Shown here: positions 2,120 through 15,291 of the stretch, piece by piece | Position numbering within the stretch: position 1 is the first letter of the stretch | How the letters are laid out: every line of letters starts with the position of its first letter | Assembly (NCBI GenBank): GCA_000317655.1 | Contig: CP003940.1 | Span: forward strand, 2,055,547 to 2,119,546 | DNA: 64,000 nt | Direction: 5' to 3' | From: Cyanobacterium stanieri PCC 7202 | GTDB taxonomy: Bacteria; Cyanobacteriota; Cyanobacteriia; Cyanobacteriales; Cyanobacteriaceae | Program-made: the position numbers and the translations under genes | Notes under the pieces: generated by a model | The model's input: only the letters and a program-made list of their open reading frames with translations | Told to the model about the DNA's origin: nothing | The model's database searches: none

Positions 2120-3541
2120 TTAACCATCCATCCATTCGGTGTGGAAAAATTCTCCACGGGGTTTATCGGTGCGCTCATAGGTATGCGCTCCAAAATAATC
2201 CCTTTGGGCTTGGGTTAAATTTTGAGGTAATCTTTCACTGCGATAACTATCAAAATAATCAAGAGAAGCGTTAAACGCAGGGGCAGGAATACCCATGGAT
2301 GTCGCCATCATCAACACATCTCGCCATGCCTGTTGACGATCTAAGATACTTTGTTTAAACTCAGGGGCAAGAAGTAGATTAGCTAAATCAGGATTATCAG
2401 AAAAAGCCTTATTGATTTTGCCTAAAAATCCAGCCTTGATAATACAACCTCCTTTCCAGATTCGGGCTACTTCAGGGAGATTAATATTAAAGTTAAACTC
2501 CTCCGATGCCTTGGCAATTAATGCCATACCTTGGGCATAGGAACACATTTTAGAACAATATAGGGCATCCCGAATTTTGGGAATAAAACTCTCCACGTCT
2601 CCATTAAAGGCAGAGGTTACGGCTTTTAATTCTTGAGATGCTTTGATTCTTTGCTCCTTAAAACCTGAAATTACCCTAGCATTTACCGCCGCATAGATGG
2701 TGGGAATAGGTACAGCTAATTCTAATGAGCTTACCACAGTCCAGCGCCCCGTACCCTTTTGCCCTGCCGCATCTAGGATTAAATCAATGAGGTGTATTCC
2801 AGTGTCAGGATCTTTTTTGGGGAAGATATTGGCGGTAATATCGATGAGGAAGGAATCTAACTCCTCGGTTTTATTCCAGTCGCTAAATACTTCATGGAGT
2901 CTGTCATTGCTCAAACCTAAACCATTTTTGAGTAAATCATAGGCTTCGGCGATTAACTGCATATCACCATATTCGATGCCATTATGTACCATTTTCACAT
3001 AATGCCCGGCGCCCCCCGGTCCTATATAAGTTACACAAGGCCCATCATCTACTTGGGCGGCGATTTTGGTGAGGATAGGTTCTAACTCTGCGTAAGCGGA
3101 TTGAGTACCCCCCGGCATGAGAGAAGGGCCATTAAGCGCCCCTTCTTCTCCACCACTTACACCCATACCCATAAAGCCTAAACCTGTGGCTTCTAATTCT
3201 TGGGTACGTCTTTCGGTGTCATTATAAAGGGAGTTACCGCCATCAATGATCATGTCTCCTTCTTGGAGGAGGGGTTTTAATTGTTGAATGACGGCATCCA
3301 CTGGGCCCCCTGCTTTTACCATCACCAAAATTTTGCGGGGGCGCTCGAGGATTTGCACAAATTCCTCTAGGGAATAGGCGGCTTTGATGTCTTTTCCTTT
3401 TGCCCTAGTAGCCATGAAATTTTCGGTTTTATCAGGGCTACGGTTATACACAGCAATGGGAAAACCCCTACTTTCTACATTAAGAGCTAGGTTTTCACCC
3501 ATTACGGCTAGTCCAATTACTCCAAAGGTTCTTTTAGTCAT
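2120..3541 (-). CDS. gnd: 6-phosphogluconate dehydrogenase, decarboxylating
   Basis: Oxidises 6-phosphogluconate to ribulose 5-phosphate and CO2 with NADP+, the third step of the oxidative pentose phosphate pathway and the main NADPH source of cyanobacteria in the dark. At 473 aa it has the usual family length. The N-terminal Rossmann fold has GLAVMGENLALN (about residues 10-21). IDGGNSLYNDTERR follows near residue 100. The catalytic region GAGHYVKMVHNGIEYGDMQ carries the conserved Lys and Asn, and the C-terminal end FHTEW is typical. The start at ATG 3541 gives a full N-terminus. It appears monocistronic. Confidence 0.97.
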   Translation of the reverse strand: MTKRTFGVIGLAVMGENLALNVESRGFPIAVYNRSPDKTENFMATRAKGKDIKAAYSLEEFVQILERPRKILVMVKAGGPVDAVIQQLKPLLQEGDMIIDGGNSLYNDTERRTQELEATGLGFMGMGVSGGEEGALNGPSLMPGGTQSAYAELEPILTKIAAQVDDGPCVTYIGPGGAGHYVKMVHNGIEYGDMQLIAEAYDLLKNGLGLSNDRLHEVFSDWNKTEELDSFLIDITANIFPKKDPDTGIHLIDLILDAAGQKGTGRWTVVSSLELAVPIPTIYAAVNARVISGFKEQRIKASQELKAVTSAFNGDVESFIPKIRDALYCSKMCSYAQGMALIAKASEEFNFNINLPEVARIWKGGCIIKAGFLGKINKAFSDNPDLANLLLAPEFKQSILDRQQAWRDVLMMATSMGIPAPAFNASLDYFDSYRSERLPQNLTQAQRDYFGAHTYERTDKPRGEFFHTEWMDG

Positions 3542-3616
3542 AAAAAATGTGTATGCTTAATATCTATTACCCTTTCAGGTTAACTTGATATTCTGGTTTT
3601 GTTTACTAAGAGAATG

Positions 3617-3690
3617 TTAAAAAAACTCTGGCATAACATTTTTTGGTTAAGGCGGGGAATGGGCAATAGTAGGGTGGGCAATGCCCACCA
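3617..3690 (+). repeat. Degenerate partial copy of the miniature element, with hairpin
   Basis: ATAACATTTTTTGGTTAAGG at 3633-3652 and the following GGGCAATAG closely resemble the interior of the full element at 59944-60074. The preceding terminal repeat is decayed, and no right terminal repeat is seen. A perfect 7-bp hairpin GGTGGGC/GCCCACC with loop AAT occupies 3673-3689. The stretch lies between gnd and aroA and may fold in the aroA leader. Confidence 0.45.
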
Positions 3691-3768
3691 TTTCTGAATG
3701 TAATCTATAATAAAACTTCCCTATCTCCCCAATCTGGCAAGAGTTTGGTAAGATCTAAATTTCAATTA

Positions 3769-5118
3769 ATGTTCGGAGATGTTGATTTTACTGTGATTAA
3801 ACTGATTAAAACTCCCCAAGAAGACCAGTTGGTAATTGAGCATAATGGCGATGGTTTGAAGGGTACTATTTCTATCCCGGGGGATAAGTCGATTTCCCAT
3901 CGTGCCTTGATGTTAGGGGCGATCGCCTCTGGACAAACCACCATCGAAGGATTATTATTAGGAGAAGATCCCCGCAGTACGGCAAAATGTTTTCAGGCCA
4001 TGGGGGCAACCATATCAGAGTTAAACACAGAAAAAGTAATTGTCGAAGGCATTGGCACTCAAGGATTACAAGAACCCACGGACATCCTTGATGCGGGTAA
4101 TTCGGGAACTACCATGCGCCTGATGTTGGGCTTGTTGGCATCCCAACCGGGTAAATTTTTCACGGTGACGGGGGATAATTCCCTACGCTCTCGCCCCATG
4201 TCTCGGGTGGTTAAACCTTTACAACAGATGGGGGCTTTAATCTACGGTAGAAAGGACAATCAAAACGCTCCCTTGGCGGTGGTTGGACAAAATTTAAAAC
4301 CCATCCATTACCACTCCCCCATCGCCAGCGCTCAGGTAAAATCCTGTATTTTGTTGGCAGGGTTGATGAGTGAGGGGAAAACCACCGTTACCGAACCTGC
4401 TCTATCACGGGATCACAGCGAAAGGATGTTACGGGCTTTTGGGGCAAAATTGGACATTGACCCTGACACTAATAGCGTTACCATTGAAGGTAAAACTCCC
4501 CTCATCGGGCAAAAGGTAATTGTACCGGGGGATATAAGCTCGGCGGCTTTTTGGCTGGTGGCAGGGGCGATCGCACCTAATTCGGATTTATTGATTGAAA
4601 ATGTGGGGGTAAACCCTACCCGTGTGGGCATTTTGGAGGCTTTGCAGATGATGGGGGCTGATATTACCCTCGAAAATCAACGGGAAGCGGCAGGAGAACC
4701 CGTGGCAGATTTACGGGTAAAATCGAGTAAATTAAAGGGTTGTACCATCGCAGGGGATATAATTCCCCGTCTCATTGATGAGGTGCCTATTTTGGCGGTG
4801 GCGGCTTGTTTTGCCGAAGGTACTACCAAAATTAAGGATGCAGAGGAGTTGAGGGTAAAAGAGAGCGATCGCCTTGCGGTGATGGCGTTAGAATTGGGTA
4901 AAATGGGGGCAAAAATTAGCGAATTTCCTGATGGTTTAGAAATTACTGGGGGAAATCCTCTCAGTGGTGCTGATGTAGATAGTTTTACCGACCATCGTAT
5001 TGCTATGAGTTTGGCGATCGCCGCCTTGATGGCAAAAGGACAAACCACCATCCACCGCGCCGATGCGGCTTCCATTTCTTATCCCACCTTTGTGGACACC
5101 TTACAGGCATTAACCTAA
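3769..5118 (+). CDS. aroA: 3-phosphoshikimate 1-carboxyvinyltransferase (EPSP synthase)
   Basis: Transfers enolpyruvate from PEP to shikimate 3-phosphate, the sixth step of the shikimate pathway. The N-terminal signature [15 protein letters not shown], the [18 protein letters not shown] motif, [13 protein letters not shown], and the C-terminal [10 protein letters not shown] and DHRIAMS blocks are all intact. Length is 449 aa from ATG 3769. The frame is open to a TTG at 3745, and a GTG at 3793 follows a GGAG, so the exact start is uncertain. The stop codon TAA (5116-5118) lies inside the left terminal repeat of the miniature element at 5115-5371, so the insertion touches the end of this gene. 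A degenerate related repeat lies upstream. Confidence 0.96.
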
Positions 5119-5371
5119 CTCGAGTTCGGGATAACATTTTTAGTCTTTACAAATAAAGGTGTCGGGTATCGGGTATCAGGTGTTAGGTTAAAGAATTTAC
5201 AAAAAGTCTATGTTAGGGGTTGATGAAAAAGTGGGGTCATGAGGGAGAATTGACAATGAACAATGAACAATGAACAAACTATGACCTGCCACCTGCAACC
5301 TGCCGCCTGTACGGACGTAGCATGCTACGTCCCCTACCATACTGACAACCATTATCCCGAACTGAGGTTAA
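5115..5371 (+). mobile_element. Miniature inverted-repeat element, copy A
   Basis: Bounded by about 20-bp imperfect terminal inverted repeats. The left is TAACTCGAGTTCGGGATAA (5116-5134). The right is TTATCCCGAACTGAGGTTAA (5352-5371). It encodes no transposase. The interior holds short tandem-like repeats (GGTATC..., CAATGAA..., ACCTGC...) and a perfect 20-base palindrome, GGACGTAGCATGCTACGTCC, at 5313-5332. Copy B at 11039-11280 is almost identical over its whole length, which points to recent movement. The ends are flanked by TA/TTAA, suggesting TA or TTAA target sites. Confidence 0.75.
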
Positions 5372-5400
5372 ATAACCTCTCAATTAGGGATAATAAGAAG

Positions 5401-6153
5401 ATGACAAAACCCCTCACTCTCATTCAAATCAGTGATGCGCACTTATTACCTGATTCCACACAATACCTGCGGGGAGAGAACCCTTGGTATAACTTACAAA
5501 GGGTATTAGAACAAGTGAAAAGCCATTCCCCAGATGGATTGTTGCTCACAGGAGACTTGGCAGACGGAGGAAGTGCGATCGCCTATAAAAACCTACAAAA
5601 AGCCATGGCAGAGTTTGATTGCCCTATTTATTGGTTACATGGCAACCACGATGATATTAATCAACTCAAATGTATTTTAACCCCATCCCAACCCTTGGGT
5701 TATCAAACCATTAACTTAGGTAGTTGGCGACTATTATTACTAGACTCAGTATTAATCAGTGCAAAATTTGGTGAGGGTTATCTGCCAGAAGTTCAACTGC
5801 AATGGTTAGAAAAAGAATTACAACAACACCCCCACAAACCCACCATCATCACCCTTCATCATCATCCTATCCCCACAGGTATCGATTGGGTAGATCAAAT
5901 TGGAGTCAAAAACGGTACTGATTTAGTTCGTTTACTAGATTCATTTTCTCAGGTGCGCTTCGTCCTATTTGGGCATATTCACCACGCACTCCACCATCGC
6001 CATTCTCATATAGACTTTTTTGGTTGCCCTTCTACCTTCTCTCAAGTCATTCCTCCTAAACCTTCCCTTAATGATCATTTACCAGGTTTCCGTCTTATTC
6101 ATTTATGGAATGATGGTCATTTTCATACCCAAGTTGAAAGGATTAATCAATAG
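5401..6153 (+). CDS. CpdA-like calcineurin-fold phosphoesterase, 250 aa
   Basis: Metallophosphoesterase of the class III cyclic-nucleotide phosphodiesterase type. The metal-binding motifs occur in order: ISDAH (D-x-H), LTGDLADGG, LHGNHDD, TLHHHP and FGHIHHALHH. These match the D-x-H / GD / GNHD / H / GHxH pattern of cAMP phosphodiesterases. The chosen ATG at 5401 places the first motif about ten residues from the start, as in the family. A longer in-frame start at 5263 lies wholly in the miniature element and is judged spurious. Substrate (cAMP or another phosphoester) is inferred from the family. Confidence 0.85.
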   Translation: MTKPLTLIQISDAHLLPDSTQYLRGENPWYNLQRVLEQVKSHSPDGLLLTGDLADGGSAIAYKNLQKAMAEFDCPIYWLHGNHDDINQLKCILTPSQPLGYQTINLGSWRLLLLDSVLISAKFGEGYLPEVQLQWLEKELQQHPHKPTIITLHHHPIPTGIDWVDQIGVKNGTDLVRLLDSFSQVRFVLFGHIHHALHHRHSHIDFFGCPSTFSQVIPPKPSLNDHLPGFRLIHLWNDGHFHTQVERINQ

Positions 6154-6242
6154 CATTGACAAGTCTCACAGAATTGGAGGATTTAGCGGACAAAACCATA
6201 ATCTTTTTAATAACTTATCACCTGAATTTGATATAAATGGTT

Positions 6243-6686
6243 TTATCTATTAATAACTTTGAGAGTAAAAGGATGTTGATTTCCGTCTGACTCCCCCACA
6301 TAAATAGAATATTGCCCGGGCGCCCATACCCCACCCATTTGTGGTAATTTTCCTGCCCCCACATCCCCTAAAATACAGGTGCGATCGCCTCTATTTGGGC
6401 CTAAAATCAATAAAGTGGGTTTACCCTGACTAGCTTCAACCCGAAGATGAAGAGAATAATTTTGCTCACTTAGATTAATAACATGGTTAGGATTACCAGC
6501 AATATAACCGCAGTCACCACTATTAACACTACCGCCCATATTGCCACTAATTTCTCTATTAAGACTCTGTGCCATGGCAAAAGGAGCAAGGAAAGAGCCA
6601 CAGAAAAGGAATACACATAGAGTATGTAATGCCGTCAAACCAGTATTCTCATATCTAAAAGGAAAGAGAAAAAATTTATAATTCAT
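6243..6686 (-). CDS. Hypothetical secreted protein, 147 aa
   Basis: The N-terminus has a basic/aromatic region and a hydrophobic core ending FLAPFAMAQ, a likely signal peptidase I site near residue 40, so the mature protein is probably periplasmic or secreted. The mature part has two Cys residues (in SGDCGYIAGNP and DRTCILGD) that could form a disulfide. It also has motifs (YSLHLRVEAS, PQMGGVWAPGQYSIYVGE) that look like a small beta-sandwich. I do not recognise a named family. It converges with the phosphoesterase and is divergent from sufE. Confidence 0.65.
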   Translation of the reverse strand: MNYKFFLFPFRYENTGLTALHTLCVFLFCGSFLAPFAMAQSLNREISGNMGGSVNSGDCGYIAGNPNHVINLSEQNYSLHLRVEASQGKPTLLILGPNRGDRTCILGDVGAGKLPQMGGVWAPGQYSIYVGESDGNQHPFTLKVINR

Positions 6687-6769
6687 TTTAGTTCGTCTTT
6701 TTTTTTCCTGCTTTCTATCCTAGACTAGAAAGTAAGCTAAAATGTTCTCTATATTTACAATTCGATAAA

Positions 6770-7198
6770 ATGGCTTCCAATTCCGCAACCAGACCCGAAA
6801 AATTAGATAAGATTGTTCAGAAATTTAAGCGTAGAGAAAATCCCAAGCAAAAATACGAGCAGTTGTTATGGTATGCCAAAAAATTAGAACCATTACCAGA
6901 TACGGCTAAAACTGCGGAAAATAAAGTTTCTGGCTGTGTTTCCCAAGTGTACATTATTGCCAACACAAAAGATGGTCAAATTTTTTATCAGGGGGATTCT
7001 GATGCCCAATTGGTTAAAGGATTAGTGGCTTTTCTGATTGAATCTTTGAATGGTTTAACCCCCCAAGAAATTGTTACCATTGAGCCTGATTTCATTGAAG
7101 AAACTGGATTACAAGCAAGTTTAACTCCCTCCCGTGCCAATGGTTTTTTGAATATCTTTAAGAAAATGCAACAGTTGGCTCTTCTTTCTCTGGGTTAG
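6770..7198 (+). CDS. sufE: Cysteine desulfurase sulfur acceptor SufE
   Basis: Accepts persulfide sulfur from SufS and stimulates it for Fe-S cluster assembly by the SUF system. At 142 aa it is the normal length. The conserved loop ENKVSGCVSQVYI (about residues 50-62) carries the acceptor Cys. IVTIEPDFIEETGLQASLTPSRANGFLNI is the C-terminal SufE signature. ATG at 6770 is the natural start. The gene stands alone; no other suf genes are in the window. Its end is 3 bases from the convergent DUF4336 gene. Confidence 0.93.
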   Translation: MASNSATRPEKLDKIVQKFKRRENPKQKYEQLLWYAKKLEPLPDTAKTAENKVSGCVSQVYIIANTKDGQIFYQGDSDAQLVKGLVAFLIESLNGLTPQEIVTIEPDFIEETGLQASLTPSRANGFLNIFKKMQQLALLSLG

Positions 7199-7201
7199 AG
7201 A

Positions 7202-7957
7202 TCAAAAATTCTTAAGCCAACGAAATGCCCTTTTCAATTCTGCACTTCCATTTTGTTGATACCAACGACCATGGGCAATAATAATACTCTCAGGATTCCA
7301 CATCAACATCTGTTCTAAAGCCTTATTTAATCGGGCTTTATGACCAAAAAAGGTAAACCGCAGATCCAAGGGCATTTTTCCATCAGGGTCAGCATTTCCT
7401 GCCAATTTAAAGGGGATATGTAACCATTTCGAGACTTTGTGGAGTTCAAAATTTTCAATTAAATCTGTGAGAATAAGGGTTTTACTGAGGGGGTGGAAAA
7501 AAAGAACTTCCTCTAAAAAATTTCCTCGCAGATGATGTTGTTTTATTTCTTGTTGCCAAGGAACAGAATCTTCTAATTTTTTCTCGAACTTAATGGGTAT
7601 ATGATTCTGTTTCGCTCGTTTTTCTACTCCCCAAGATGCCCAACTAATAGCATCAGGATAAACTTTTGCCCAATAGGGAATATGGGTATAGTGTAGCTTA
7701 TTTGGGGAGATTAAATGTCGAACTTGTCCTAGTTGATCAATTTCTTCTTTCAGATTATCGGTTAATAAAGTGGGTGAATGTATCCACAAATCATCGTTTT
7801 TTAGGCGAATAATAGTCATTCGGGTGGGAAAAGGCAGATAAATTCCTGCAAAAATGGACATTTGCACCACTGGAGCATCTACAATCCAAATATTATCGCC
7901 AACAGTTTTTAGTTGGTTGATAGGTTCGTACAAACTTATGGCATTAGAGTTGATCAT
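7202..7957 (-). CDS. DUF4336 domain protein, 251 aa
   Basis: The protein resembles DUF4336 members (IWIVDAPVVQMSIFAGIYLPF near the N-terminus, IRLKNDDLWIHSPT, then LISPNKLHYTHIPYWAKVYPDA). These are considered distant relatives of the metallo-beta-lactamase fold with an altered metal site. Here HYTHIPYW, a late HPLSKTLILTDLIEN and IIAHGRWY retain metal-site-like His and Asp positions. No biochemical role is established to my knowledge. The gene starts 9 bases after the upstream membrane-protein gene, so the pair almost certainly forms an operon under the divergent TetR operator at 8556-8596. Confidence 0.75.
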   Translation of the reverse strand: MINSNAISLYEPINQLKTVGDNIWIVDAPVVQMSIFAGIYLPFPTRMTIIRLKNDDLWIHSPTLLTDNLKEEIDQLGQVRHLISPNKLHYTHIPYWAKVYPDAISWASWGVEKRAKQNHIPIKFEKKLEDSVPWQQEIKQHHLRGNFLEEVLFFHPLSKTLILTDLIENFELHKVSKWLHIPFKLAGNADPDGKMPLDLRFTFFGHKARLNKALEQMLMWNPESIIIAHGRWYQQNGSAELKRAFRWLKNF

Positions 7958-7966
7958 AAGACAATT

Positions 7967-8548
7967 TTATATTTGTTGGATAGGTTTTTCTTGAATTAAA
8001 TGACTTATTAAAATTTTCAGGAAGAAAAGGTTTAAAAACCACTCTAGTCCAAGGGTAGGAGTAAATAAATAGCAATTACCTAGTAACACTATGGTGTAAC
8101 AACCCATTGCTACAGGACGTTGCAGGGTGAGGGGAGTTTTGAGAATAATTGTTGAAGCCATTAAAAGATATATAGAAACTGTAATCCAAAAAATAATATC
8201 GCCCCCACGAAATATCCACGCTACCAAGGCTATATGCACTAGATGCAGGGTGACAAAAGAAAAGTGTTGCCAAAACCCCTGACTGGGACGGTGATACCAT
8301 TGTTTAGCTGTATTGGTGGCATTGGTGATTATACCCCCTACTAAATCTAAGGCGAGTAAACCTGCGAAAAGTATTTGTATGATATGCCAATCTATACCAT
8401 TAATTAAACTGTAATAGGGCAGGGCGATCGCACTTAGCACCGCAGGAAAAAATTGCAACCATAATTCACCACTGGTAGCATTTTCCCCTGCTATTTGATC
8501 AATGATTTTTTTCCACCCTCCACGGGTTACTAAATTATTGTTATTCAT
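7967..8548 (-). CDS. Polytopic membrane protein, 193 aa, TetR-linked
   Basis: About five hydrophobic segments are visible. Between them lies a striking conserved-looking polar block, DLVGGIITNATNTAKQWYHR, soon followed by FWQHFSF and TLHLVHIALVAW. The clustered His residues could bind metal or heme in the membrane, which is inference. I do not recognise the family. The ATG at 8548 is preceded by a GAGG ribosome-binding site about 5 bases away. The DUF4336 gene follows after 9 bases. Upstream is the perfect inverted repeat at 8556-8596 and a divergent TetR gene, so expression is probably repressed by that regulator. Confidence 0.7.
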   Translation of the reverse strand: MNNNNLVTRGGWKKIIDQIAGENATSGELWLQFFPAVLSAIALPYYSLINGIDWHIIQILFAGLLALDLVGGIITNATNTAKQWYHRPSQGFWQHFSFVTLHLVHIALVAWIFRGGDIIFWITVSIYLLMASTIILKTPLTLQRPVAMGCYTIVLLGNCYLFTPTLGLEWFLNLFFLKILISHLIQEKPIQQI

Positions 8549-8555
8549 CTTTACC

Positions 8556-8596
8556 TCACAACAGTTGTTATGTTTTATTTATAACAACTGTTGTGA
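8556..8596. promoter_or_regulatory. TetR operator, perfect 16-bp inverted repeat
   Basis: The arms TCACAACAGTTGTTAT (8556-8571) and ATAACAACTGTTGTGA (8581-8596) are exact reverse complements around a 9-base spacer. Each arm also contains the pseudo-palindrome ACAACwGTTGT, which would suit one regulator dimer per arm. The site lies between divergent starts at 8548 and 8629, only 8 bases from the membrane-protein start codon. That is ideal for repressing both promoters. Confidence 0.85.
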
Positions 8597-8628
8597 TAAA
8601 GTGTCAAGGAGTGACCAAAAAAATATAA

Positions 8629-9207
8629 ATGTCTGATCAACGTCGTAAAGAAGTTAGCCAAGCCACATGGCAAGTCATAATTAGGGATGGTTTAGATAGA
8701 ACCAGTTTACGGGCAATTGCCCAAGAATTGGGGTGTACCACAGGGGTAGTAACCCACTATTTTCGTAACAAGGAGGAATTAATTTTATTTGCTCTACAAC
8801 AAGTTACAGAAGAATTAGAACAAACCATGAGGCAACAAGCCACAGGAAAAGAAGGCTTAGAAAAGATACATGGAATGTTATTGGCATTTTTACCCCTTGA
8901 TGACCATCGCCAAAACTTAGTCCGTGTATGGGTTGCATTTTTAGGTTATGCCGTGGGTAGAGATTCTTTATTGGCTGAACATAAACATAGTGCCAAGCGT
9001 CTCCATGGCATAATCAAGCAAGAATTAGAGGAGTTAGAAGCTGAAAACATGATCAAAAAAAATCTTGATCTCGAGAGTGAAGTAAACAGCTTATTAGCTT
9101 TTGTCAATGGAATGAGTTTAGACTGTTTCATTCAGGCAAATCCTTTAACTCCTCCACTACAAGAGCAATATTTAAACCGTTACCTTAAAAGTATTTTTCT
9201 TGATTAA
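8629..9207 (+). CDS. TetR/AcrR family transcriptional regulator, 192 aa
   Basis: N-terminal TetR DNA-binding domain (about residues 8-55): TSLRAIAQELGCTTGVVTHYFRNKEEL is the helix-turn-helix with the typical Y-F-x-x-K-E-x-L end. The C-terminal part is an all-helical ligand/dimer domain, with some resemblance to BetI-type regulators. It is divergent from the membrane-protein/DUF4336 pair, with the 41-base operator between them. Autoregulation and repression of that pair are the simplest reading. The ligand is unknown. Its stop overlaps the end of the convergent sdhA gene by a few bases. Confidence 0.88.
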   Translation: MSDQRRKEVSQATWQVIIRDGLDRTSLRAIAQELGCTTGVVTHYFRNKEELILFALQQVTEELEQTMRQQATGKEGLEKIHGMLLAFLPLDDHRQNLVRVWVAFLGYAVGRDSLLAEHKHSAKRLHGIIKQELEELEAENMIKKNLDLESEVNSLLAFVNGMSLDCFIQANPLTPPLQEQYLNRYLKSIFLD

Positions 9208-10952
9208 TACTTTCTTTCCTTGGGTTCAAACATATTGATAACTACGGGCATATAATCGATTTTTACCCCTTCAGGGTGATGGTAAGCGAGGGTATGTTGC
9301 AAAAACTTTTGATCATCACGTTGGGGAAAGTCTTCTCGAGAATGGGCCCCTCGGCTTTCTTGCCGTCGGATGGCGGAGGTTAAAATCATTTCTCCCACTA
9401 CCATGATATTTTTTAGCTCGAGAGCTTCAATTAATTCTGTATTCCAGTAAATTGATTTATCATCAAGAAAAATTTGATTATAAAGGGATTTAAGTTCTTG
9501 AATTTTATCTAATCCCTCTTGCATTACTTCTTGACGACGAAACACTCCACAATGTTCACTCATACAGTCTTGAAACTTTTGCCTTAAATCATTAATTCTC
9601 ATATTGCCCCTTTGATTTAGTAAACAATCTATCCTTGCTTGGGCGGTTTCTAAATAGGGTATTTCATTGATGGTGGGCAACTCTCGATTTTGTACATAAG
9701 ATGCGATCGCCCTTCCCGTTTTTCTACCATATACCACACACTCCAAAAGCGAATTACTACCCAAACGGTTGGCACCATGTACCGATACACAGGCACATTC
9801 CCCCGCCGCAAAAAAGCCCTCCACGAGGGTATTTCCATCCTGACGCACTCGCCCATCAGTATTAACAGGTATTCCCCCCATACAATAATGGGCAGTGGGG
9901 CGCACGGGCATGGGCTCATGCACCGCATCAATGCCCACCAACCGATGGGCTTCCTCCCAACAAAAAGGCACACGACTCATGATCTTTTCCTTGCCCATGT
10001 GAGTCAAATCGAGATGAATATAAGGCCCTCCTGCACTGCCATCGCTATGGATACCCCTACCGGCCCGAATCTCTTTCACAATTGCCCTAGAAGTGATGTC
10101 ACGGGGTGCTAATTCCATCTGATTGGGGGCATACCTTGTCATAAATCTTTCCCCCTCACTGTTGCGTAAATAAGCCCCTTCTCCCCTCACGGCTTCCGAG
10201 ATTAAAACCCCCACAGGATATAAGCCCGTAGGATGAAATTGGACAAATTCCATATCCTCTAACGGCAACTGGGCGATCGCACACATCCCCAAACCATCCC
10301 CCGTCGAAGCATAATCATTAGACGTAGTATTAAAAACCCGACCATAACCCCCCGTCGCAAACATCACAGCCTTTGCCCTAGCCACCTGCACATTACCATC
10401 ATCAATATTAAACATCACCACCCCCTTAGCCTCCCGTTGCCCGTTTTCAGAAGCCTTCTCCTCCAAAATCAAATCCATCACATACCACTCATCATATATC
10501 TGCACCCCACAACGCCGTAAATTATTCACCAACTCATGTAAAATAGCATGACCAGTTTTATCCGCCGCATAACAAGTGCGCTTATGAGAATGTCCCCCGA
10601 AAGCCCGTTGGGCAATCTTGCCATCCTGCAAACGGGAAAATAACACCCCCAAATGTTCCAACTCAATAATTACCTCTGGCGCTTCCTTAGTCAAATATGC
10701 CACAGCATCCTGATCCGCCAAATAATCAGAACCCTTAACAGTATCAAAAGCGTGAGCTTTCCAATCATCATCAGGATCAACATTTTTCAGCGTTGCCGCA
10801 ATGCCCCCCTGTGCCGCCACAGAATGGGAACGAATAGGGTGGGTTTTTGCCACCAAAGCCACATCTATATCTTGATTTTGCTTCTTTATTTCCAACGCTG
10901 CCCGACAACCAGCCAAACCACCACCAACGATAATTACATCATGCTGTAACAT
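9204..10952 (-). CDS. sdhA: Succinate dehydrogenase/fumarate reductase flavoprotein subunit
   Basis: FAD-containing catalytic subunit oxidising succinate to fumarate; in cyanobacteria it feeds electrons to the thylakoid quinone pool. Dinucleotide-binding VIIVGGGLAGCRAALE is at the N-terminus. RSHSVAAQGGIAA carries the His that binds FAD covalently. FVQFHPTGLYP and PVRPTAHYCMGGIPVN are substrate-site blocks, and HGANRLGSNSLLECVVYG follows. Length is 582 aa from ATG 10952, chosen over a TTG two codons upstream. No sdhB is adjacent, consistent with the scattered cyanobacterial subunits. Miniature element copy B lies 86 bases upstream of the start. Confidence 0.95.
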   Translation of the reverse strand: MLQHDVIIVGGGLAGCRAALEIKKQNQDIDVALVAKTHPIRSHSVAAQGGIAATLKNVDPDDDWKAHAFDTVKGSDYLADQDAVAYLTKEAPEVIIELEHLGVLFSRLQDGKIAQRAFGGHSHKRTCYAADKTGHAILHELVNNLRRCGVQIYDEWYVMDLILEEKASENGQREAKGVVMFNIDDGNVQVARAKAVMFATGGYGRVFNTTSNDYASTGDGLGMCAIAQLPLEDMEFVQFHPTGLYPVGVLISEAVRGEGAYLRNSEGERFMTRYAPNQMELAPRDITSRAIVKEIRAGRGIHSDGSAGGPYIHLDLTHMGKEKIMSRVPFCWEEAHRLVGIDAVHEPMPVRPTAHYCMGGIPVNTDGRVRQDGNTLVEGFFAAGECACVSVHGANRLGSNSLLECVVYGRKTGRAIASYVQNRELPTINEIPYLETAQARIDCLLNQRGNMRINDLRQKFQDCMSEHCGVFRRQEVMQEGLDKIQELKSLYNQIFLDDKSIYWNTELIEALELKNIMVVGEMILTSAIRRQESRGAHSREDFPQRDDQKFLQHTLAYHHPEGVKIDYMPVVINMFEPKERKY

Positions 10953-11038
10953 AACCAAACCTAAGTAAACATCACTATTTCTATGATGTAACAGTTATGG
11001 AAAAATGTACCATTTTGATTACAACTCTTTGTATTAAT

Positions 11039-11280
11039 TTAACTCGAGTTCGGGATAACATTTTAGTCTTTACAAATAAAGGTGTCAGGTATCGGGTATC
11101 AGGTGTTAGGTTAAAGAATTTACAAAAAGTCTATGTTAGGGGTTGATGAAAAAGTGGGGTCATGAGGAAGAATTGACAATGAACAATGAACAAACTATGA
11201 CCTGCAACCTGCCGCCTGTACGGACGTAGCATGCTACGTCCCCTACCATACTGACAACTATTATCCCCAACTGAGGTTAA
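11039..11280 (+). mobile_element. Miniature inverted-repeat element, copy B
   Basis: The left terminal repeat is TTAACTCGAGTTCGGGATAA (11039-11058) and the right is TTATCCCCAACTGAGGTTAA (11261-11280). The interior matches copy A almost base for base, including the 20-base palindrome GGACGTAGCATGCTACGTCC (about 11222-11241). It differs mainly by loss of short internal repeat units. It has no coding capacity. Both ends abut ATT/AAT-rich sequence. It sits in the 431-base interval between the divergent sdhA and phhB genes. Confidence 0.75.
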
Positions 11281-11325
11281 TTTAATTTTGAGATCAAGAT
11301 TAAAAATCAAGTCGTCATCAATGAC

Positions 11326-11349
11326 GGGTTTTTAAACCCAATTTTTTTG
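11326..11349 (+). terminator. Terminator-like hairpin ahead of phhB
   Basis: GGGTTT-TT-AAACCC (11326-11339) is followed by AATTTTTTT. A second palindrome, CGTCAT-CA-ATGACG (11313-11326), abuts it. This double stem ends 35 bases before the phhB start. It could stop transcripts coming out of the miniature element or act in the phhB leader. Confidence 0.5.
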
Positions 11350-11383
11350 ATAACATCAAAATTGAAAACCCAACACAAAAACT

Positions 11384-11668
11384 ATGCTTCTCAATCAAAC
11401 AGAAATCCAACAAAAACTGAATAACTTAGATCAATGGGCTATCAACGGCAAAAACATCACCAGAACCTTCCAATTTAGTGATTTTGTCAATGCCATTGAC
11501 TTCGTTAATAAATTAGTCGGCCCAGCCGAATCCGCAGGACATCATCCCGACATATCAATCTCTTATAACAAAGTCACCATCAGCCTCACCAGCCATGATC
11601 AAGGAGGAATTACTCAAAAAGACTTTGACCTAGCCCAAGAAATTACAAATATATTTCAATCTTCCTAG
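11384..11668 (+). CDS. phhB: 4a-hydroxytetrahydrobiopterin dehydratase (pterin-4a-carbinolamine dehydratase)
   Basis: Dehydrates 4a-hydroxytetrahydropterins and recycles the pterin cofactor. The 94-aa single domain is the usual length. The conserved AESAGHHPDISISYNKVTISL block carries the His-His-Pro active-site motif, and SHDQGGITQKDFDLAQEI is the family C-terminus. ATG at 11384 is the natural start. Its end overlaps the convergent hypothetical gene by 4 bases. Confidence 0.92.
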   Translation: MLLNQTEIQQKLNNLDQWAINGKNITRTFQFSDFVNAIDFVNKLVGPAESAGHHPDISISYNKVTISLTSHDQGGITQKDFDLAQEITNIFQSS

Positions 11669-12057
11669 TCAGGTGACTGCTCTTCCAATGTTCCCTTACT
11701 TTGGGCATCATTGAGGAAAATCCGAAAACAATCATCATCATTGATGATATAACTAAAAGCCCCTCTCATTAACTCTAAACTGAGGGGATCATTCCCAATA
11801 TTATCCACAAAAACTAAACCAAGCATCAAAGATAAAAACTCCTCGGGATTATCCTCCTCATATCGAGCCGCCGCTGCCAAAGCAAACTCCTCCAAAATAT
11901 CAGGATCATCCATAGTTCCCGTGGTGATCAAAGACTTACACATATAGCTTCCCATCAAATCCCCCACCTCACCAGCACTGACATTTGTTTCTGCCCTCAC
12001 CTGAGCAAAAGGTGTCATCCACAGCAACGCACTAATGAATAAAGTCAAGTATTTCAT
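11665..12057 (-). CDS. Hypothetical secreted protein, 130 aa
   Basis: MKYLTLFISALLWMTPFAQVRAE is a clear signal peptide with a cleavage site near residue 22. The mature region is acidic and probably helical, with two Cys residues (SYMCKSL and DDDCFRIF). It resembles short cyanobacterial periplasmic proteins of unknown function; I assign no family. It is convergent with phhB and begins 24 bases left of miniature element copy C, so its promoter may lie in or next to that element. Confidence 0.65.
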   Translation of the reverse strand: MKYLTLFISALLWMTPFAQVRAETNVSAGEVGDLMGSYMCKSLITTGTMDDPDILEEFALAAAARYEEDNPEEFLSLMLGLVFVDNIGNDPLSLELMRGAFSYIINDDDCFRIFLNDAQSKGTLEEQSPD

Positions 12058-12081
12058 TGCAATTTCTAATATTAATGATAA

Positions 12082-12291
12082 TTAACCTCAGTTCGGGATA
12101 ACAGTTGTCAGTATGGTTAGGTTACAGGTTGCAGGTTACAGGTTTAAAATACGACCAGCCTTTGTTAGTTCCTTGATGGAACTAAGTATCAGAAAATTAA
12201 TTAACATTACAGTTTTTGTAAATTTCTTAACCTGATACCCGATACCTGGCACCTTTACAAGACTATAAATTTTATCCCGAACTCAGATTAA
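12082..12291 (-). mobile_element. Miniature inverted-repeat element, copy C (inverted, diverged interior)
   Basis: Terminal repeats are TTAACCTCAGTTCGGGATAA (12082-12101) and TTATCCCGAACTCAGATTAA (12272-12291). Relative to copies A and B it is inverted: its left interior GTTGTCAGTATGG matches the reverse complement of their right interior. The centre is diverged but also contains a stem, TTAGTTCC-TTGAT-GGAACTAA. Conserved ends with a variable, hairpin-bearing centre are typical of non-autonomous elements. Confidence 0.7.
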
Positions 12292-12389
12292 TTAATCATA
12301 CATTGAACTCCTAAAAAGAGTGACAAAAACCAAAAAAAGAGCCAAAAAGCCCAATATGTCATCAAATATTGGCAAATTGAAACCCAGAT

Positions 12390-13710
12390 CTTGACATTCT
12401 CCCGTCACCAAATCAAAGATTATGGTGAGGGATTCTAACTTCAACCACCCAACTTATCAATCAAGTTTTCACTCAGTTGACAGAGGTTAATGTGTCCATT
12501 AGCGTTTACCAGTTCCAGACTGGAAGTTTGGGATTGCCCACCCCTACTTAATTCTCTCAATGCTTTAGCTAAGATATTAATTGCCCCCGCTTCGTCTCTA
12601 TCCATTACACAACCACATTCGCAAACATGGGTTCTTTGAGATAGAGTTTTCTTAACTATGGCTTTACAATGAGGACATTCTTGACTCGTATATTGTGGAT
12701 TTACACCATAGACAACTTTGCCCATCACTTTACCATAGTATTCTAACCAATCAAAGAAAGTTCTCCAAGAAGCATCATTTATACTCTTAGCTAAACAATG
12801 GTTTTTGACCATATTTTTAACAGTTAATTTCTCATAAGCTACGACATCGTTAGATGACACCACGCACCGAGCTAATTTGACAAGCCAGTCTTTACGTTGC
12901 CTTGATACTTTTAAGTGTTTTCTACCTAACTTCTTAATCGCTTTTTTACGAGAATTACTACCTTTTTTCTTTTTGCTAACTTTTCTTTGCAATCTTTTTA
13001 ATTGCTTTTCAGACTTTCTTAAATGTCTTGGATTATTAACTTTAACACCGTTTGAATCTGTATAAAAGCTACTTAAACCGACATCTAAACCGATAGCATT
13101 CCCACTAGGTTTAATATCCTCTTGTCTTTCTTGGTCAATACAAAATTGACAATAGTATCCATCAGCACGACGAATAACTCTAACTCGTTTAATTTGATTA
13201 AGTTGGTAGAAATTGAGGTCAAAACCACCTCGCATTTTAAACCACCCTGCTTTAAATCCATCCCGAAAATTAATAGCAGTTCCATCTTTAGAAAGTTGCC
13301 ATCCAGTCGTTTTGTACTCCACAGAACGACCTTTCTTAAATTTAGGATAACCTTTTTTCTTAAGAGATGGATTTTTACAGTTGTCATAAAACCGTTTAAT
13401 AGAAGCCCAAGCCCTTTCTGCACTAGCTTGACGAGCCATAGAATTGAGTTTCTTTGCCCATTCAAACTCACTAGCTAATTCTTTACAAAGGCGAGATAAA
13501 TCATACTGCCCAACCCCCTTATGGTCCATCCAATAGCGAATACAAGAATTACGCACGAAACTAGCAGTGCGAATCATCTCATCTAATTTTTGGTCTTGAG
13601 GTTGGTTTCCGTATAATTTAGCTTCGATAACTAGCATAACTTTATGGTGTTTACATTACCATAAGATTTATTTTAACACAAAGATTTTATCTTGTGTGGA
13701 ATCCTAGGAA
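12390..13710 (-). mobile_element. tnpB-only IS200/IS605-type element 1
   Basis: The right end has a stem CCC-g-TCACCA / TGGTGA-GGG (12401-12431), flanked by CTTGACATTCT and GATTCT. The same flanking arrangement occurs in the second element at 19773. The terminus is placed at about 12390 by that alignment. The left end is uncertain: a TCCTAGGA palindrome at 13702-13709 is the best candidate. No tnpA is present. The guide-RNA scaffold of TnpB systems is normally made from the tnpB 3' end to this right end. Confidence 0.5.
12441..13637 (-). CDS. tnpB: RNA-guided endonuclease TnpB (OrfB), 398 aa
   Basis: RuvC-like nuclease, ancestor of Cas12, that cuts DNA complementary to an element-encoded guide RNA. 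The catalytic acidic residues appear intact: GLDVG (Asp 185), VAYEKL (Glu 269) and MDRDEAGAINIL (Asp 346/348). A zinc finger (CPHC...CECGC) sits between the last two. The N-terminal helix-turn-helix/wedge region and GYPKFKK motif are normal, and the length is full. The last motif has Ala-Gly where many TnpB have Asn-Ala, a variant that probably does not abolish activity. It stands without tnpA. A short inverted repeat, TTATGGT/ACCATAA (13642-13664), flanks the region before the start codon. Confidence 0.92.
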   Translation of the reverse strand: MLVIEAKLYGNQPQDQKLDEMIRTASFVRNSCIRYWMDHKGVGQYDLSRLCKELASEFEWAKKLNSMARQASAERAWASIKRFYDNCKNPSLKKKGYPKFKKGRSVEYKTTGWQLSKDGTAINFRDGFKAGWFKMRGGFDLNFYQLNQIKRVRVIRRADGYYCQFCIDQERQEDIKPSGNAIGLDVGLSSFYTDSNGVKVNNPRHLRKSEKQLKRLQRKVSKKKKGSNSRKKAIKKLGRKHLKVSRQRKDWLVKLARCVVSSNDVVAYEKLTVKNMVKNHCLAKSINDASWRTFFDWLEYYGKVMGKVVYGVNPQYTSQECPHCKAIVKKTLSQRTHVCECGCVMDRDEAGAINILAKALRELSRGGQSQTSSLELVNANGHINLCQLSENLIDKLGG

Positions 13711-13723
13711 TGTTTTTTTGCTG

Positions 13724-13844
13724 GTCGCTTTTCATGAGGGGCTGTGGGGCGAATTCACTTCGCCCCGATAGCAACGCCCCATCCCCCGTTAAATTCTGTG
13801 GGTTTTATTTTTGTTGTGAAGTTTAACGGGGGCATTCAAGCGAC
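13724..13844. repeat. Structured intergenic element with nested inverted repeats
   Basis: The outer arms GTCGCTT (13724-13730) and AAGCGAC (13838-13844) enclose two perfect stems. These are GGGGCGAA/TTCGCCCC (13746-13766, 5-base loop) and CCCCCGTTAAA/TTTAACGGGGG (13783-13832). The design suggests a small non-autonomous repeat or a folded RNA. It lies between tnpB and the antiporter gene and is GC-richer than its surroundings. Confidence 0.6.
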
Positions 13845-13935
13845 ATTTTTAAGGTAAAAAACAAATACAAACTGGTTGTGATAATCTAAGGAAAATATAA
13901 AGTAAAGATTTTCTCAGCTTAAAGTATAAAAATCT

Positions 13936-15291
13936 ATGTCTTGGTTTCATCCCATTTTAGCAACAGCAACGGAAACAGAAACAGCCGAACCATCTTTAGT
14001 TTTGGCTGGAGTATTGTTAAGTCTCGTGATCATCTATTTTGCCAGTAAAATAGGTGGAGAAATTTGTGCAAGAATCAACCTCCCCGCCGTATTAGGAGAA
14101 TTAGTCGGCGGGGTTGTCATCGGAGTATCTGTCCTCAAACTTTTGGTATTTCCAGAAGGCGGCATGGAAGCCACCGACTCCCTTATTATTCAACTTTTGC
14201 AATCCACCGCTAATTTAACCCCCACAGGGACAGAATTAGTATTTGAGAGCATGAGTGAAGTTATCTCTGTCTTGGCAGAATTAGGCGTAATTATTCTCTT
14301 ATTTGAAATTGGCTTAGAGTCAGACTTAAAAGAATTAATTAGGGTAGGCCCTTCGGCGGCCATTGTTGCAGTGGTAGGGGTTGTCGCTCCCTTTGTTATG
14401 GGTACTGCGGGATTAGTATTTCTTTTTGGTTTACCTGTTATTCCTTCGGTATTTGCAGGGGCAGCACTAACCGCTACCAGTATTGGGATTACAGCCAAGG
14501 TATTAGCAGAGTTGGGCAAATTAAGCTCCACAGAAGGACAAATTATTATCGGTGCGGCAGTACTCGATGATATTTTAGGAATTATTGTTTTGGCAGTGGT
14601 GGGTAGTCTTGTCAAAACAGGGGAAGTACAAATTAGCCAAATTATCATCCTGATTATCAGTGCGGGTGCTTTTTTGATAGGTACGATTCTTGTTGGTAGA
14701 TTAATCTCTCCTTTCCTCATCAGTTTGGTCAATCAAATGAAAACAAGAGGACAAATTTTAATTACAGGTATTGTTTTTGCCTTTGTATTAGCTTATTTAG
14801 CAAATATTATTCAACTAGAAGGGATTTTAGGTGCTTTTGCCGCTGGATTGGTACTAGCAGAAACAGAAAAAAGAAAGGAATTAGAAGAACAAATTATTCC
14901 CGTAGCGGATTTGTTTGTGCCTGTTTTCTTCGTCTGTGTAGGGGCTAGAACTGATTTGGGAGTGTTAAACCCTGCCATTCCTAGTAACCGTGAGGGTTTA
15001 ATTATTGCTTCATTTCTGATCGTGGTGGCAATTGTTGGTAAAGTGATTACTGGTTTTACAGTATGGGGTAAACCTAATATTAATAAACTCGCCATTGGTG
15101 TTGGTATGATACCTCGAGGAGAAGTTGGTTTAGTTTTTGCTGGAGTAGGTTCGGCAAGTGGGGCGTTATCCCCTGCTACTGATGCGGCAATTATTGTGAT
15201 GGTAATAGCGACTACTTTTGTAGCTCCTCCTCTTTTAAAAGCCGTATTCAAAGATGAGACTCAAGAGGTAGTGGAATCGGAAGCAAACTAG
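13936..15291 (+). CDS. Na+(K+)/H+ antiporter, CPA2 family (NhaS3/NapA-like), 451 aa
   Basis: Membrane antiporter exchanging monovalent cations for protons. About 12-13 hydrophobic segments follow a short N-terminal segment. The ion-binding Asp-Asp pair is visible in AAVLDDILGIIVLAV (about residue 210). The family motif LAELGVIILLFEIGLESDLKEL is present near residue 112, and GMIPRGEVGLVFAG near the C-terminus. The protein resembles cyanobacterial NhaS3 in length and motifs, so a thylakoid or plasma-membrane pH/sodium role is likely. It ends in a short acidic tail. It appears monocistronic. Confidence 0.88.
   Translation: MSWFHPILATATETETAEPSLVLAGVLLSLVIIYFASKIGGEICARINLPAVLGELVGGVVIGVSVLKLLVFPEGGMEATDSLIIQLLQSTANLTPTGTELVFESMSEVISVLAELGVIILLFEIGLESDLKELIRVGPSAAIVAVVGVVAPFVMGTAGLVFLFGLPVIPSVFAGAALTATSIGITAKVLAELGKLSSTEGQIIIGAAVLDDILGIIVLAVVGSLVKTGEVQISQIIILIISAGAFLIGTILVGRLISPFLISLVNQMKTRGQILITGIVFAFVLAYLANIIQLEGILGAFAAGLVLAETEKRKELEEQIIPVADLFVPVFFVCVGARTDLGVLNPAIPSNREGLIIASFLIVVAIVGKVITGFTVWGKPNINKLAIGVGMIPRGEVGLVFAGVGSASGALSPATDAAIIVMVIATTFVAPPLLKAVFKDETQEVVESEAN

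Follow-up and report, generated by a model that had tools for sequence, protein, structure and literature searches.

The divergent gene cluster analysed here, from Cyanobacterium stanieri PCC 7202, is best read as a core of two components, a TetR-family repressor and a membrane protein of an unnamed family (hereafter MP), to which a DUF4336 gene is an optional addition. Overall, we consider it moderately probable that the cluster constitutes a ligand-released TetR switch over a membrane protein whose function is probably enzymatic. With respect to the separate parts of this reading, control of MP by a TetR switch is highly probable, and an enzymatic role for MP is close to an even call. An earlier note on this DNA had guessed at a three-gene system; in its place stands a two-part switch consisting of TetR, an exact double operator and one recurrent target family. 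In terms of biological role, our best reading is an inducible module for small-molecule stress whose membrane protein belongs to an undescribed family.

Within the window (the whole stretch of DNA that was analysed, 64,000 nucleotides), the module is tightly packed between sufE and a long open reading frame (ORF) that we take to encode the flavoprotein of succinate dehydrogenase/fumarate reductase, and which is referred to below as the sdhA-read ORF (Table 1). The sufE and DUF4336 genes are convergent and 3 bases apart (7198-7202), and the TetR gene overlaps the end of the converging sdhA-read ORF by 4 bases (9204-9207). The gene order, the divergence of TetR from the other two genes and the 9-base spacing between those two, all described previously, agree with the ORF coordinates. 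The divergent intergenic region between TetR and MP measures 80 bp. A scan for sigma-70 promoters yielded none that was convincing (2 found versus 0.9 expected), and in our reading there are no choline or betaine genes among the ORFs listed at 3000-14000.

Table 1. Genes and regulatory features of the TetR-MP locus, in window coordinates.
Feature	Position	Strand	Description
sufE	6770-7198	+	SufE family by Pfam
DUF4336 gene	7202-7957	-	251 aa (ORF list)
MP/DUF4336 intergenic gap	7958-7966		9 nt, between two minus-strand genes
Membrane protein (MP) gene, unnamed family	7967-8548	-	193 aa (ORF list)
Whole inverted repeat	8556-8596		Arms 8556-8571 and 8581-8596, 16 nt each, 9 nt between
Putative operator site 1, ACAACAGTTGT	8558-8568		Adjoins MP gene
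Putative operator site 2, ACAACTGTTGT	8584-8594		Adjoins TetR gene
TetR-family repressor gene	8629-9207	+	192 aa, BetI-type C-terminal domain
Long ORF beyond TetR	9204-10958	-	ORF list

In terms of regulatory DNA, the perfect inverted repeat reported between TetR and the divergent pair is indeed present. Its arms are 100% complementary, and it was the sole perfect one of the seven pairs reported when positions 6500-9700 were searched for arms of at least 10 nt separated by at most 40 nt. The repeat had been interpreted as one operator, and this part of the claim did not stand: each arm has its own odd palindrome, so the feature reads as two operators, whose start positions are 26 bp apart. A single place in the window (both strands listed) matches the pattern ACAACNGTTGTTAT-N(5-25)-ACAACNGTTGT, against 0 matches in 100 dinucleotide shuffles. 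Moreover, the pair ACAACNGTTGT-N(10-22)-ACAACNGTTGT, with no mismatch, occurs at one place in the 3.16-Mb genome, and because the exact pair is present once in this genome, the TetR protein is probably a dedicated regulator.

Assignment of this protein to the TetR family is supported by an N-terminal helix-turn-helix domain (Pfam TetR_N, 42 bits against a cut-off of 24, E 8.2e-11) and by palindromic sites, which are predicted operators, in a divergent intergenic region and recurrent in relatives. The C-terminal domain matches TetR_C_6 (Pfam, 62.3 bits against a cut-off of 27, E 6.1e-17). PADLOC gave no match, and in PHROGs the matches were limited to three families of unknown function, all at the N-terminus of TetR. 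Relatives of the TetR protein at E 1e-25 or better are present in 9 of the 386 genomes of the phylum. In one locus (L056, 2932-6084), a TetR-like region lacking the N-terminus lies in frame at the end of a 1050-aa ORF that by eye is of the NTPase/WD40 type; the genome concerned (G300) also has a full-length TetR copy.

The linkage between regulator, operator and target was followed across MP loci. Relatives of MP were found via two short peptide patterns containing K82, W84 and H86 or E169, W170 and K178, and a profile from six MP sequences yielded 126 relatives, from which the best 80 were carried forward. TetR was sought at these loci with a TetR profile built on the same loci. A scan of genome contigs with a single MP sequence gave 29 pattern matches, none of them confirmed. 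The contigs of two of the loci, L075 and L128, are probably identical with those of G360 and G207, respectively, which were matched in the search of the phylum, and the two MP searches are thus not independent. Among the best 80 of the 126, a divergent TetR gene lies beside MP in 34 loci and a codirectional one in 3 more, against a background in the same 80 loci of 6 TetR genes in 580 kb away from MP. Conserved co-occurrence of the three families had been proposed as a check on the original claim. By this measure TetR adjoins MP, in either orientation, in 37 of the 80 loci, which is below half (43 are without it), and the DUF4336 part of the claim fails under the refuting condition that the note itself had set, as described below.

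The operators follow the same arrangement. A search with a degenerate 11-mer, allowing one mismatch per site, gave 26 operator pairs in the 852 kb of the 80 loci, 75 of which hold more than 700 bp upstream of MP. All but one of the pairs (25 of 26) are found no more than about 110 bp upstream of the MP match, with a spacing of 24-26 bp in 21 of these 25, and their carriers are 23 of the 34 divergent TetR/MP loci together with L077 and L092; the 26th pair is in L128, 2.8 kb from MP. Extraction of 33 divergent intergenic regions gave 22 with two sites 22-30 bp apart, and the 23rd is that of L068. L077 and L092 carry their paired operator upstream of MP, yet have no adjacent TetR gene. The 34th divergent locus, L143, encodes another kind of TetR (TetR_C_8) and has no operator pair, and the ten other divergent loci without this operator all belong to gammaproteobacteria. 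Short, different palindromes were seen, at the limit used, in four of these ten (L107, L115, L116 and L127), an example being TTTAGTCCA-CA-TGGACTAAA in L115, which suggests a second operator type.

Genomes in which no MP was found also have paired sites beside their TetR relatives (L051, L052, L054 and L055, 26-32 bp), and L053, of the same group, has one clear site. In all five loci an acetyltransferase-like gene faces TetR (Pfam-tested in L052, by eye in the others). The presence of sites before these genes, where MP was not found, indicates that the sites are tied to the regulator and not to MP. Taken together, these comparisons establish the linkage of TetR, operator and MP and describe a predicted switch that is conserved; they also bear out the earlier view of a TetR-linked, apparently undescribed membrane system, as regulator, operator pair and MP are co-conserved.

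With respect to MP itself, the loci span cyanobacteria, Chloroflexota, Pseudomonadota and several other phyla, and within its own phylum MP was found in 8 of 386 genomes including its own, one of the eight being weak and with an internal stop. Relatives at 26-30% identity also occur in 12 plasmid records (11 Vibrio and 1 Ruegeria), annotated as 'hypothetical protein' or with no feature. The window MP matches no Pfam or NCBIfam family above cut-off. Scanning 78 MP members against the same collections gave scattered weak hits, the lowest E value being 3.6e-5, to HGSNAT_cat in one member whose cut-off status was not shown. A prolipoprotein diacylglyceryl transferase model matched two of the 78 (best E 3.7e-4), and individual scans of ten members from among the most divergent produced no hit at E 0.01. 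In a tree made by a quick method from 77 of the 80 relatives (L120, L121 and L139 were left out for stops or shortness), the window MP forms a long branch of odd composition and unsure placement.

Structure-based searches gave a similar picture. The AlphaFold2 model of the window MP is all helical with a mean pLDDT of 90.8, and Foldseek gave no match to it in the PDB at E 0.001 or better. The best VIA match (Z 5.7, rmsd 5.8, 140 aligned) is within the range of common helical arrangements, as are the rhodopsin entries (Z 4-6). A comparison of the MP profile with PDB sequences gave two matches, the best at E 0.92.

The most distinctive feature of MP is its set of conserved polar residues. The alignment rows are 37-58% identical to the window MP, and E28, D68, K82, H86, R87, H102, R144, E169, W170 and K178 are present in all 78 of them, with the conservation of K82, W84 and H86 and of E169, W170 and K178 being partly selected because each locus was found via patterns containing these residues. 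E28, D68, N76, H95, H102, R144, H183 and E187 lie outside both search patterns, and R87 was allowed as R or K. N76 and E187 are each conserved in 77 of 78 rows, H183 in 76 and H95 in 75. The clustered histidines remarked on earlier are thus a real property of the family, with H105 less conserved (59 of 78). In a membrane protein of 193 residues, polar conservation of this kind suggests catalysis or ion coupling.

The genes found beside MP vary among loci. In 16 of 80 loci, all from cyanobacteria according to their titles, the gene directly after MP encodes a member of a family of four-transmembrane proteins (4-TM), and the three such members that were compared with Pfam matched no family above cut-off; examples are L015 (6546-7064), L020 (7984-8583), L073, L081 and L091. 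An NmrA/NAD_binding_10 cluster is present in 13 of 80 loci and directly follows MP in ten, mostly from Vibrio, Shewanella and Marinomonas. Examples tested by Pfam, among mechanically called ORFs, include two of these and also, in L092, a short-chain dehydrogenase that lies two genes beyond MP, in L100 an F420H2-quinone-reductase-like gene before MP and in L143 a P450 after it. These redox-type neighbours constitute circumstantial support for an enzyme role of MP, and they are too varied for any pathway to follow.

The third gene encodes a member of DUF4336 (PF14234, 57.8 bits against a cut-off of 28.5). It is a short 251-aa form that matches positions 13-164 of the 321 in the family model, whereas the other DUF4336 protein of the genome, a 401-aa ORF, matches 1-321. 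The metallohydrolase ancestry proposed for it is supported by fold. Specifically, its model, which is of modest confidence (mean pLDDT 68.3, five sequences), was matched by Foldseek to B1 lactamases (best E 4.4e-10, prob 1.00), and the nearest fold match by VIA (Z 17.9, rmsd 3.3, 191 aligned) is 2p97, the putative metal-dependent hydrolase Ava_3068 of Anabaena variabilis. The predicted fold is that of the metallo-beta-lactamases (MBL), and a comparison with PDB chains gave no sequence match. The canonical metal motif of that fold, HxHxDH, is found neither in the window protein nor in the consensus of 14 relatives, and the sequence occupying its place, as judged from strand order, is SPNKLHYTH. 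Across 14 sequences, of which one is truncated ahead of a stop, conservation is complete for H89 and nearly complete for D165 and H229. No alignment was obtained with hhalign between the DUF4336 alignment and two MBL proteins of the same genome, and the mapping of metal residues is therefore by order of motifs only. The predicted metal-binding region of DUF4336 is altered relative to MBL enzymes.

Turning to distribution, neither MP nor TetR was found, at the thresholds used, in the single further member of the genus or the five further members of the family that were sampled, and DUF4336 was absent at E 1e-5 from four other genus members and ten other family members sampled. Given this sparse distribution, the module is a patchy, accessory feature. 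Of 60 relatives, its own genome counted, 14 have this DUF4336 at E 1e-5 or better. The best homologues of sufE and the sdhA-read ORF are not neighbours in the relatives searched, and no clean empty site was seen; the idea that the module was inserted cleanly between the two genes flanking it was rejected, as their best homologues lie on different contigs or far apart where both were found. Together with the failure to find the module genes in the close relatives searched, this indicates that the region has been rearranged. Genes that by eye are TnpB/IS200-IS605-like lie near the module (window 12441-13637, minus strand), near a broken copy of it in G066 (L016 9367-10632, minus strand) and directly after MP in L066 (4938-6297, minus strand), and are possible agents of its mobility.

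Several other explanations of the locus were weighed. Efflux operons classically have a TetR gene divergent from a membrane protein gene, and MP could accordingly be a small-molecule exporter or permease in an ordinary TetR-controlled operon of this kind. The window MP has a weak hit to the SMR transporter QacL (E 0.0065), an EmrE model matched one MP member (E 0.13), and genes of an ABC transporter cluster lie near MP in some loci. However, the QacL hit comes from 1 of 78 MP members and scores 17 bits against a cut-off of 205, for which reason identity with SMR multidrug exporters was rejected, and no transporter figured among convincing fold matches, of which there were none. Moreover, the near-invariant His, Asp, Glu, Arg and Lys residues of MP exceed what most small exporters show. 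We therefore regard an exporter as unlikely.

Joint action of MP and DUF4336 on one substrate, which would make this a genuine three-part system, appears less likely still. It is favored by the codirectional arrangement of the two genes here with their 9-base gap, by their adjacency in L090, L097, L118 and L128, and by broken copies with TetR in G066 (L016 6672-8791), where MP is frameshifted, MP and DUF4336 segments are tandemly duplicated behind TetR and a 143-aa DUF4336 piece is present twice. Nonetheless, the former four are the only loci among the best 80 of 126 with DUF4336 near MP; all belong to one clade (Phormidium/Geitlerinema), have a different, convergent arrangement, and lack both TetR and an operator pair next to MP. 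Among the loci examined, all three families occur together only in the window and, broken, in G066, and the conserved three-gene module claimed earlier is not borne out. In addition, the window DUF4336 is closer to four stand-alone relatives (58-59% identity, L057-L060) than to those beside MP (52-54%), other stand-alone members being 34-56% identical to it, and nine loci of other DUF4336 relatives (L057-L065) have no MP or TetR by tblastn. A distant DUF4336 (30%) lies about 4.3 kb from TetR in the TetR locus L051. In L062 (4484-5888, genome G002), a stand-alone DUF4336 gene, with no MP in the locus, stands beside a gene that by eye is Cupin_5-like, and such a gene also flanks MP-DUF4336 in the Phormidium clade. 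The opposite extreme, that DUF4336, MP and TetR are chance neighbours that share a divergent region and are functionally unrelated, might draw on the absence of the module genes from the close relatives searched and on the separation there of the sufE and sdhA-read homologues. It is very improbable, as TetR, operator pair and MP recur together in 23 of 34 divergent loci, and two further loci have just the pair. Chance adjacency is possible for DUF4336 taken by itself, and this gene looks like an optional partner and occasional passenger of the TetR-MP core.

Building on the two-component switch as the favored reading, we propose the following mechanism. TetR probably occupies the two operators as a pair of dimers and would repress both its own gene and a co-transcribed MP-DUF4336 operon. 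A small, probably hydrophobic molecule would bind TetR and release it from the DNA. MP would then act, most likely as a membrane-embedded enzyme and less likely as a transporter, to modify or remove the inducing compound or to repair membrane damage caused by it. The gene beside MP would be exchangeable, being DUF4336 here and elsewhere a 4-TM, NmrA-like, short-chain dehydrogenase, F420H2-quinone-reductase-like or P450 gene. Comparison shows the linkage of TetR, operator and MP, how broad and how conserved the MP family is, and the fold of DUF4336; repression and release, co-transcription, the enzymatic role and the hydrophobic nature of the inducer are what we infer. TetR regulators usually bind the compound that their target handles, and the identity of the inducer would for this reason point to the function of an MP family that is spread over cyanobacteria, Chloroflexota, gammaproteobacteria and other phyla. 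More speculatively, and with considerably more doubt than confidence, MP may found an undescribed family, and possibly fold, of small enzymes embedded in the membrane, in which residues such as E28, D68, H86, H95, H102, E169 and H183 would form a metal or haem site, TetR-switched in cyanobacteria and gammaproteobacteria and working with exchangeable redox partners in a general detoxification or lipid-modification route.

With respect to known systems, a literature search gave nothing on Ava_3068 and nothing for the combination of TetR family, GNAT and inverted repeat; a search with operator words gave no paper on TetR by title, and the passages found on DUF4336 were entries in tables. The b-type cytochrome membrane protein ExtQ (NF040970) is weakly matched by 13 of 78 MP members (best E 0.0011), and the window MP itself has no such match. 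As a haem clue ExtQ was set aside, the two matching members of the ten scanned scoring 15.9 and 16.1 bits, over 44-49 residues, where the cut-off is 150. Within the family, fold and literature searches made, the MP target family is undescribed, and the way in which the regulation is laid out belongs to a known type. The choline-responsive repressor BetI (TIGR03384) shares TetR_N and TetR_C_6 with the window TetR, and the match extends over residues 1-174. Identity with BetI was rejected, as the window TetR scores 74 bits against the equivalog cut-off of 201.3 (and 65.6 against 118 for PRK00767); it differs from BetI in falling below this cut-off and in its presumed target, which is an unnamed membrane protein.
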